From: Alphaproteobacteria bacterium
GTDB lineage: Bacteria; Pseudomonadota; Alphaproteobacteria; JAPYRI01
Reading direction: 5' to 3'
Assembly (NCBI GenBank): GCA_029941135.1
Contig: JAPYRI010000019.1
Coordinates: forward strand, 1 to 39,350
Length of the DNA: 39,350 bases
Below are positions 1-24,082 of this stretch, in pieces. The notes beneath the pieces were generated by a model, which had not been told where the DNA came from, made no database searches, and saw only the letters and a program-made list of their open reading frames with translations. How positions within the stretch are numbered: the first letter of the stretch is position 1; every line of letters starts with the position of its first letter. The translations under genes were made by a program, and so were the position numbers.

Positions 1-501
1 CCGGTAGTCACCCACGCCCAACACGGACAGCAACTGACAATGTCCGCCCGACACCAGCAATAGTAAATAGGGAAATGGCACGCGGTCGGTCAGCCGGATG
101 GTGAGCGCGTGGGCCTCCAAGTGATTAACAGCGATAAATGGCAATTGGCGCGCGGCAGCGATGGCTTTGCCGGTGACCATACCAACCATCACACCGCCAA
201 CAAGTCCCGGCCCGCTGGTTGCGGCAACTGCCGCTAACTTACCGAAATCCGTTCCTGCTTCGGCGACAGCGCGGGCTATCAGGCCATCCAAATGATCCAC
301 ATGCGCGCGTGCGGCGATTTCGGGCACAACTCCGCCATAGGGCCGATGCATTTCCACTTGCGAGAGCACCAGGTTGGACAGCACAGCGCCATCAGCGGCG
401 ACGACCGCTGCCGCGGTTTCATCACAACTGGTTTCGATCCCCAAGACCAGGGCATGATCTTCGAGGCCATTTGCTTCAGAATGACGGGAGGTTGTGGTCA
501 A
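1..501 (-). CDS. tsaD: TsaD, tRNA N6-threonylcarbamoyladenosine transferase (partial, N-terminal 167 residues)
   Basis: This is the catalytic subunit that transfers the threonylcarbamoyl group to A37 of ANN-decoding tRNAs (t6A). Translating the minus strand from a TTG at 501 gives a protein with the ASKHA-fold start [15 protein letters not shown], the conserved [13 protein letters not shown] stretch and the metal-binding NHLEAH motif, followed by [12 protein letters not shown]. These are signature TsaD/Gcp motifs. The TTG start is chosen because AAGGA lies about 8 nt upstream and the family motif begins about 20 residues in. An in-frame ATG does not occur early enough. The gene runs off the left edge, so about half of the usual 340-350 residues is missing. 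It is divergent from hemC, an arrangement common in alphaproteobacteria. The 70-nt intergenic region is AT-rich, but I see no convincing promoter pair in it. Confidence 0.93.
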
Positions 502-4801: not shown

Positions 4802-5261
4802 TGCATTACTCGCGCGCGCGATTACGTTGTCGCGGGAGAAGATGAGGACCGTCGCGGGCGGACCTTTTGGCGCCGTGGTCGCGCGTGATGGGCAAGTGAT
4901 TGCTGAAGGTTGGAACATGGTCGCATCTGAAAATGACCCCACGGCCCATGCCGAAATCGTTGCGCTGCGCCGGGCTGCGCGTAAGCTCGGCACTTTCGAT
5001 TTGTCGGGGTGCACTCTGTACGCGTCCACCGAACCTTGCCCCATGTGCTATGGCGCCGCCCATTGGGCGCGGATCGAGCGCATTGTTTATGCCAATGATC
5101 GCCAAGCGGCGGCTGAGGCCGGATTTGACGATGCGCTGCTGCACGAACAGATGGCACTGCCGGCCCATGCGCGCGCTATTGAGATGGTCCACACACCCCA
5201 TGAGGATGCATTGGCGGTAATCGCTGAGTGGCGGACAAAGCCGGACAAAGTATCTTATTGA
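4794..5261 (+). CDS. guaD: Guanine deaminase-like nucleoside/base deaminase
   Basis: Cytidine-deaminase-fold enzyme of 155 residues. Zinc ligands are His52 in AHAE (catalytic Glu54) and Cys82/Cys85 in EPCPMC. The spacing, the segments GGPFGAVV and GFDDALLHEQM, and the end WRTKPDKVSY closely parallel Bacillus-type guanine deaminase (about 156 residues, ending in a similar Tyr). This suggests hydrolysis of guanine to xanthine rather than tRNA A34 deamination. TadA would be the main alternative, but TadA lacks this C-terminal tail. The start ATG overlaps the end of hemY by 8 nt, so the genes are probably co-transcribed although functionally unrelated. A gap of 104 nt follows before acoA. Confidence 0.85.
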   Translation: MDDALLARAITLSREKMRTVAGGPFGAVVARDGQVIAEGWNMVASENDPTAHAEIVALRRAARKLGTFDLSGCTLYASTEPCPMCYGAAHWARIERIVYANDRQAAAEAGFDDALLHEQMALPAHARAIEMVHTPHEDALAVIAEWRTKPDKVSY

Positions 5262-5365
5262 GCCGATCATATTATCCAAAAGCCGCCACCGCTTGCAGTT
5301 GACGGCGGCGCGGCCTAGTCTGTCCGGCCATTTTATACACGCGCTTTAAAGAGGGAGAAAGCACC

Positions 5366-22816: not shown

Positions 22817-23674
22817 GTGACCATCGTCTATGAAGAATTTAAGGCGCTGCAGATGCCCGACGCCGAACAGATCATCACCAACCGCGAAGTTATGCATTAT
22901 GCGTTAAGCATTGGCATGGGCGAAGATCCCATGGACAAACAAGAACTCGCCTACGTGTTCGAAAAGGGTCTCAAAACCATTCCGACCATTACAACTGCGA
23001 TTGCCTGGGAAGACAGCTGGATTTTTAAGACCGGGCTCAATCCCAACATGGTGGTTCATGGCGAGCAGTGGCTGACCATGCACCGGCCGTTCCCAGCGGA
23101 CGTGCACGTGCTTGCGACCAACCGGATCGTTGATATCTTCGATAAGGGCGCCGACAAAGGGGCGGTCGTGCTGATGGAGCGCGAACTGACCGACAAAGCC
23201 TCGGGCGATAAGATTGCGACTCTACTGATGACCATTATGGCGCGTGGCGATGGCGGCTTTGGTGGTCCGAAAGGGTCCGGTCCCGCCCCCCACCCGGTGC
23301 CGGACACAACCCCCGATGCGGTGTTCGACTACGAATCCAGCCTCCGGCAAGCGCTTTATTATCGCTTAAATGGGGATCGCAACCCGCTACACGCAGACCC
23401 GGATTTTGCAGCCGCAGGTGGGTTCGAGCGCCCCATCCTCCACGGCTTGTGCAGTTATGGCATTGCCTGCCGGGCGGTATTAGCGACTTTCTGCGATTAT
23501 GATCACACCAAGCTCACCGGCTTCGATGTGCGATTTTCCGCGCCGGTTATTCCCGGCGAGACTTTGCGCACCGAAATGTGGCGGGACGGCGACGTGGTTT
23601 CATTTCGCATGCGGGCCGTCGAGCGCGATATCATTGTTTTGAAAAATGGCAAAGCGGCGATCGGTGGGTTCTGA
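22817..23674 (+). CDS. MaoC-family (R)-specific enoyl-CoA hydratase 2-like protein
   Basis: Double-hotdog protein of 285 residues, as in the hydratase-2 part of peroxisomal multifunctional enzyme type 2. The N-terminal hotdog (about 1-145) holds VMHYALSIGMG and WLTMHRPFPAD. The C-terminal hotdog carries the hydratase 2 motif YRLNGDRNPLHADPDFA with catalytic Asp187 and His192, followed by ERPILHGLCSYGIA. It hydrates trans-2-enoyl-CoA to the (R)-3-hydroxyacyl-CoA. The start is GTG with GGGAGG seven bases upstream. Its neighbours (dienoyl isomerase, SCP2, FadB/A) fit fatty acid or sterol-side-chain metabolism. Confidence 0.92.
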   Translation: MTIVYEEFKALQMPDAEQIITNREVMHYALSIGMGEDPMDKQELAYVFEKGLKTIPTITTAIAWEDSWIFKTGLNPNMVVHGEQWLTMHRPFPADVHVLATNRIVDIFDKGADKGAVVLMERELTDKASGDKIATLLMTIMARGDGGFGGPKGSGPAPHPVPDTTPDAVFDYESSLRQALYYRLNGDRNPLHADPDFAAAGGFERPILHGLCSYGIACRAVLATFCDYDHTKLTGFDVRFSAPVIPGETLRTEMWRDGDVVSFRMRAVERDIIVLKNGKAAIGGF

Positions 23675-23683
23675 TAATGTAAA

Positions 23684-23760
23684 TCGGGGACAGTATACTA
23701 TTTATTGACAACGGCCATAGATGCTGCTCCGCAAATTGCCAAAGCATAAATAGTATACTG
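23684..23760. repeat. REP/MITE-like element: perfect 15-bp inverted repeat
   Basis: CAGTATACTATTTAT at 23691-23705 is repeated in perfect inversion at 23746-23760, with a 40-nt spacer. The left arm is preceded by TCGGGGA, giving GGGGACAGTATACT. From memory, motifs of the form GGGGACAGTATACT occur at ends of elements linked to REP-associated tyrosine transposases (RAYTs). No transposase is in the window. The element fills most of the gap between the convergent MaoC and SCP2 genes and could also act as a bidirectional terminator. Confidence 0.65.
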
Positions 23761-23782
23761 CGCTCGGTTAAGCTGCCGGAAA

Positions 23783-24082
23783 TTACCCGAGCACGGTGCC
23801 AAGTTTCATGGCAATGCTCATGTCGCCGGCGACTTTCAATTTGCCCGACATAAACGCCGCCGTTGGATCCAAATCACCCGTCGCCATTTTCTCAAAATTT
23901 TCCATGGACATGGAGATGGTGCACTGGGCATCGGCGTCTTCATTAGACACAGAATTTGGGGACGAAGCGCCATCGACGAAAATTTTTCCGTCGGCGCCAA
24001 AATCAAACTTCACAGTGGAGCCGAGCCCGGAGTCTTCCCCCACGCTTTTGCGCATTCCTTCGGTTAATGTTTCAAGACTCAT
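23783..24082 (-). CDS. SCP2 sterol-carrier domain protein
   Basis: A 99-residue single-domain SCP2 protein. The pattern VKFDFGADGKIFVDG, DAQCTISMSMENFEKMATGDLDPTAAFMSGKLKVAGDMSIAMKL is diagnostic of the domain, which forms a hydrophobic tunnel for fatty acyl chains or sterols. The ATG is preceded by AAGGA. It is the last gene of the minus-strand beta-oxidation operon (44 nt after the FadB/J-like gene), so it may deliver or shield acyl-CoA substrates. Confidence 0.93.
   Translation of the reverse strand: MSLETLTEGMRKSVGEDSGLGSTVKFDFGADGKIFVDGASSPNSVSNEDADAQCTISMSMENFEKMATGDLDPTAAFMSGKLKVAGDMSIAMKLGTVLG

Follow-up and report, generated by a model that had tools for sequence, protein, structure and literature searches.

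A probable miniature of a TIR-type RAYT transposon between two convergent genes of an alphaproteobacterial genome

The palindrome between the MaoC-like gene and the SCP2-family gene of the window is very probably a miniature (MITE), which arose when a TIR-type RAYT transposon (TIRYT or 'TIRtron') lost its internal part. The window is the whole stretch of 39,350 nucleotides that was analysed, and it is contig C19 of a 3.02-Mb genome in 178 contigs. The element is regarded as a non-autonomous TIRYT derivative because of its inverted ends, the dispersed copies, the RAYT homology, the co-occurrence of miniatures with RAYT genes, and the empty orthologous sites of two miniatures of other genomes. 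This kind of element has already been described, and the window copy is a real relic of mobile DNA. The coordinates of the features are listed in Table 1.

Table 1. Features of the window element, its neighbouring genes, and the related elements of the same genome.
Feature	Coordinates	Strand	Basis
Whole miniature: outer flank TAAATC, TIRs, interior, decayed right TIR	23680..23771	.	Inverted repeat; C20 homology over 80 bp, E=5e-13; further genome copies
Left TIR, GGGGACAGTATACTATTTAT, fits the TIRYT motif GGGGWSAS	23686..23705	+	Same end type on RAYT transposons of many genomes; motif from PMC3733652
Right TIR, perfect over its inner 15 nt but decayed further out, CTGCGCTC in place of CTGTCCCC	23746..23765	-	
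Kept RAYT leader, -35-like TTGACA (23705-23710) to GATGCTG	23705..23726	+	Matches to the C127 RAYT leader and to C20
Upstream gene, MaoC-like dehydratase / MFE-2 hydratase	22817..23674	+	Pfam PF01575, PF22622
Downstream convergent gene, SCP2 sterol-carrier family	23783..24082	-	Pfam PF02036; position by tblastn
Related element	C20:~20-106		
Related element	C58:12843-12896		
Related element	C3:46209-46262		
Related element	C2:35250-35279		
Related element	C2:59143-59198		
Related element	C37:~5044-5281		

The perfect 15-nt inverted repeat with a 40-nt spacer, which had been proposed in the initial annotation, was reproduced: CAGTATACTATTTAT lies at 23691-23705, and its complement arm at 23746-23760. 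The window has no other perfect pair of at least 15 nt with a spacer of at most 100 nt, and one such pair was seen among 300 dinucleotide-shuffled versions (0.003 per window). The arms can be extended imperfectly to 24 nt (83%; 23682-23705 / 23746-23769), and the outermost TAAATC on the left pairs with TTAACC read inward from the right, which gives an element of 92 bases. The left end is GGGGACAGTATACT (23686-23699), and its GGGGACAG (23686-23693) carries the GGGGWSAS motif; the right end is decayed. The single-stranded DNA fold of the element was better than that of shuffled sequences (z -2.7, 3/200). The element takes up most of the 108-bp gap between the two genes, whose convergent arrangement was also confirmed. 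At its right edge, a small hairpin is possible between GCTCGG, which adjoins the decayed TIR, and CCGAGC, at the end of the SCP2 gene (23762-23793). The genome also contains a second MaoC-like paralogue with 48% identity (G000:C106:1677-2528).

A search for RAYT genes revealed one intact gene in the genome (C127:826-1488). The earlier statement that no RAYT is nearby is therefore true of the window's contig, but not of the genome. The protein of 221 aa has a Y1_Tnp domain (Pfam, 43 bits) with NHVH and YVELNP motifs; it is related to NCBIfam NF047646 REP_Tyr_transpos (70.3 bits, E=1.5e-19, under the curated cut-off of 80 bits) and, weakly, to the solved TnpArep structure 4er8 (E=0.002). The intact element spans C127:~766-1514, and the gene is flanked by inverted ends of the same type as the window copy (CGGGGACAG...CTGTCCACG); it opens with AAAACCGGGGACAG and closes with CTGTCCACGGTTTT. 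The genome holds a cognate Y1 transposase (HUH and Tyr) within the same TIRs.

The window copy consists of the left end of the transposon and a part of the RAYT leader, joined straight to the right end. The C127 leader runs on as GTTTATTGACACC...GATGTTG, and the window copy reads ATTTATTGACAAC...GATGCTG at the same place. Comparison of the window interior with this leader in register showed 16 of 24 identical positions (0/20000 shuffles as good), whereas a free local alignment was modest (176/5000 shuffles as good). The kinship of the interior to the RAYT is carried by the in-register test and by the match to the C20 copy, which is 33 nt long (0/5000 shuffles as good). No -10 in register with the TTGACA of the retained leader remains in the window copy. 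As in a MITE, the ends are common with those of the autonomous element, and the window copy has no coding sequence.

Pattern and BLAST searches of the whole genome, with reversed-pattern controls of zero, found about seven related dispersed copies of 20 to ~235 bp, so the element is not single-copy, and the condition of one copy without related elements, by which the initial annotation would have been refuted, does not hold; the number is a lower bound because the genome is fragmented. The copies have differing neighbours and unrelated flanks. The C58 and C3 copies are perfect 54-bp palindromes, in each of which private variants of one arm recur in the other (GGTGACAG; GAGGACAGCATAC). At C2:35250 there is nothing but a palindrome, and the smallest C2 copy is the 20-bp palindrome GTGGACAGTATACTGTCCCC. 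The largest copy, on C37 (~235 bp), carries RAYT coding sequence with its middle deleted: it aligns over ~120 bp with the 3' end of the RAYT element, including C-terminal coding sequence, and its other side resembles, by eye, the start of the N-terminal coding sequence. This intermediate retains coding sequence that the window copy lacks. Together, the ~740-bp RAYT element and the copies of ~235, ~90, 54, and 20 bp form a graded series within one genome, from the full element to the bare palindrome. The proposal of the initial annotation that the element is RAYT-linked, non-autonomous, and multi-copy is supported by these copies and the C127 gene.

The palindrome might also be read as a plain bidirectional terminator that serves both convergent genes and has no mobile past. 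Its position is convergent, the fold of either strand is better than that of shuffled sequences (z about -2.5), and the C58 and C3 copies likewise lie between convergent reading frames. However, the two C2 copies are located between co-directional frames and the C37 copy between divergent ones. The element has no U-tract, its loop is 40 nt, and its stem is A+T-rich, whereas an intrinsic terminator has a G+C stem followed by a T run; no intrinsic-terminator site was detected in 23500-24000. Moreover, the element shows RAYT homology and has sequence-specific relatives at other sites of the genome. This explanation is very unlikely, and a terminator was rejected as the origin of the palindrome on the zero matches in that interval. 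The suggestion that the element could terminate both transcripts likewise found no support, although the modelled hairpin would nonetheless form in both of them.

A canonical REP or REPIN, namely the GTAG-footed hairpin pair that RAYTs of subclass 2.2/2.5 mobilise, is also palindromic and RAYT-linked, and a convergent-gene position is common for REPs (PMC3733652). Neither end of the window element has a GTAG or GTGG foot, however, and the genome contains about seven copies rather than hundreds. The C127 RAYT has subclass 2.1-like motifs (NHVH, Y-ELNP), and this group was reported without REPs (PMC6006769). Identification as a REP or REPIN sensu stricto was rejected because of the missing foot, the low copy number, and the membership in the TIR type, and this reading is highly improbable. 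Of the label 'REPIN/MITE' given initially, MITE is retained in the sense of an internal-deletion miniature, whereas REPIN is not.

TIR-type RAYT transposons, from which the window miniature most probably derives, were also found in other genomes. When species genomes were scanned with the RAYT protein, 80 loci were obtained, whose best segments were 52-76% identical; they belong to Alpha-, Gamma-, Zeta-, and Deltaproteobacteria, Nitrospirae, Acidobacteria, and others. Ends of the GGGGACA...TGTCCCC type are present at most of the loci inspected, in many phyla, which bears out the initial reading of GGGGACAG as a RAYT-associated transposon end, as on the C127 element. The core after GGGGACA varies by locus (GTATAC, CAATAC, CCATAC, GTTTAC), and is usually equal at both ends. 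The exact 14-mer GGGGACAGTATACT occurred in only one other genome among the nearest 58 relatives, and it was not found in the literature searched. The nearest RAYT (76%) belongs to genome G058, which has at least 7 miniatures of 45-105 bp; one side of its miniature L156 resembles, by eye, a RAYT 3' end. In G384 (C43, ~45.6-46.4 kb; L195), a RAYT gene is bracketed by two complete 44-bp miniatures, whose outer flanks differ, instead of by simple ends.

Paired miniatures were detected in 7 of 385 class members, with up to 16 per genome, and the reversed-pattern control gave 0 in all 385. The pattern required exact ends at both sides, and for this reason the genome of the window is not among the seven. 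RAYT genes (E<=1e-15) were present in 36 of the 385 class members, including five of the seven; the two miniature genomes without a RAYT match are 77% and 70% complete. The RAYT was more frequent in the miniature genomes than in the rest (5/7 vs 31/378; Fisher p=1e-4, uncorrected for kinship).

Empty sites show that the family inserts, though for two miniatures of other genomes and not for the window copy. One miniature of G384, located right after a stop codon between convergent genes, has no counterpart at the orthologous spacer of G212 or of G414. The orthologous site of a G306 miniature is empty in the congener G415; both comparisons lie within one genus, and the empty sites have diverged. 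A search for the orthologous MaoC/SCP2 spacer in the 385 class members, where the order is represented by the window's genome only, gave no empty site for the window copy. Among 29 relative loci checked, an SCP2 gene was near MaoC in L256 only, ~1 kb apart. These data also bear on a third explanation, by which the palindrome is a protein-binding site (e.g. of a regulator) that is merely common to the RAYT element, and no product of transposition. The minimal 20-bp C2 copy is of binding-site size. Against this reading, the C20 and window copies have transposon interior in common, the C37 copy shares coding sequence, and congeners have empty sites where related copies would lie. Such a site is extremely doubtful as the source of the family.

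The outer flanks of the miniatures were compared for 28 short elements of six genomes. Over 6, 8, and 10 nt outside GGGG, the two ends matched better within an element than between siblings (0/20000 permutations each). The base adjoining GGGG matched in 100% within elements vs 61% between siblings, and the excess match extends ~7 nt outside GGGG. The outer ~7 nt are element-specific yet inversely matched at both ends in miniatures of G384, G306, G253, G079, and G058 (L172-L212, L135, L155-L168). The flanks of short elements also match better than those of full-length ones (p=0.007, for two sets of different origin). These flanks, which are matched between ends but variable between siblings, are possibly a new point. 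It is conceivable, though rather unlikely, that insertion or upkeep copies one flank or arm onto the other through template switching or hairpin-primed copying. For inverted repeats generally, template switching is known to homogenise the arms (PMC8604942), and it would explain the matched flanks. The alternatives are flank copying upon insertion or palindromic targets; the latter are not favoured because the empty sites show no palindrome, though those sites have diverged.

A direct duplication of the end and flank just outside the element was counted in 13 of 41 short elements (a count without control). These duplications, tandem copies of the outer flank plus GGGGACA in units of ~12-19 bp, lie just outside the left or right end of RAYT elements and miniatures (L056, L065, L066, L076, L111, L112, L159, L167, L209, and others). 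Such short tandem duplications are possibly a signature of insertion or slippage.

As in the Y1/HUH family, the transposase would recognise the ends as single-stranded hairpins. By action in trans, the RAYT may once have moved the window copy into the short gap where the two convergent genes meet, an insertion between genes as related copies elsewhere have made. With GGGGACAG lost from its right terminus, the copy now appears to be fixed and in decay. Judged from its right end, which reads CTGCGCTC and not CTGTCCCC, it is probably immobile and no longer a RAYT substrate. A local effect, if any, would come solely from the hairpin in both read-through transcripts.

TIR-type RAYTs are widespread, but few studies have dealt with their repeats and mechanism. 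The size series in one genome shows how deletion can turn a RAYT transposon into a REP-like palindrome, and the end-coupled outer flanks provide a testable handle on the insertion or arm upkeep of such elements. If the flank copying is true, RAYT miniatures would be self-perfecting palindromes that record how TIR-type RAYTs insert.

RAYT-like genes with TIRs of the motif GGGGWSAS were named 'TIRYT/TIRtron' by Di Nocera et al. in 2013 (PMC3733652), and most TIRYT-type genes were assigned to TnpA_Y1 subclass 2.1, without REPs, by Quentin et al. in 2018 (PMC6006769). The GGGGACAG end and the NHVH/Y-ELNP motifs fit this type. The TIRYT/TIRtron, like the present system, combines a RAYT-like Y1 transposase inside GGGGWSAS TIRs with TIR repeats scattered over the same genome; the TIR repeats described there are single, dimeric, or grouped, whereas those here are deletion products that keep coding ends or leader, in a genome that was not treated in that study. 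The members of subclass 2.1 (Bertels group 1) have the HUH motif NHVH, WQ, Y-ELNP, about 220-240 aa, and low copy number, like the C127 RAYT, which is placed there by motif only; the authors saw no REP-like repeats near such genes. The REPIN and GTAG REP (PMC3116915, PMC2817692) are also non-autonomous, palindromic, RAYT-linked, and often near gene 3' ends, whereas the window family lacks the GTAG foot, has a low copy number, and ends in transposon TIRs. The bacterial MITEs Nezha and RUP (named in PMC3733652) are likewise non-coding, TIR-bounded, degenerated-IS-like, and moved in trans; whereas the parent here is an HUH/Y1 RAYT, and no target duplication is evident.
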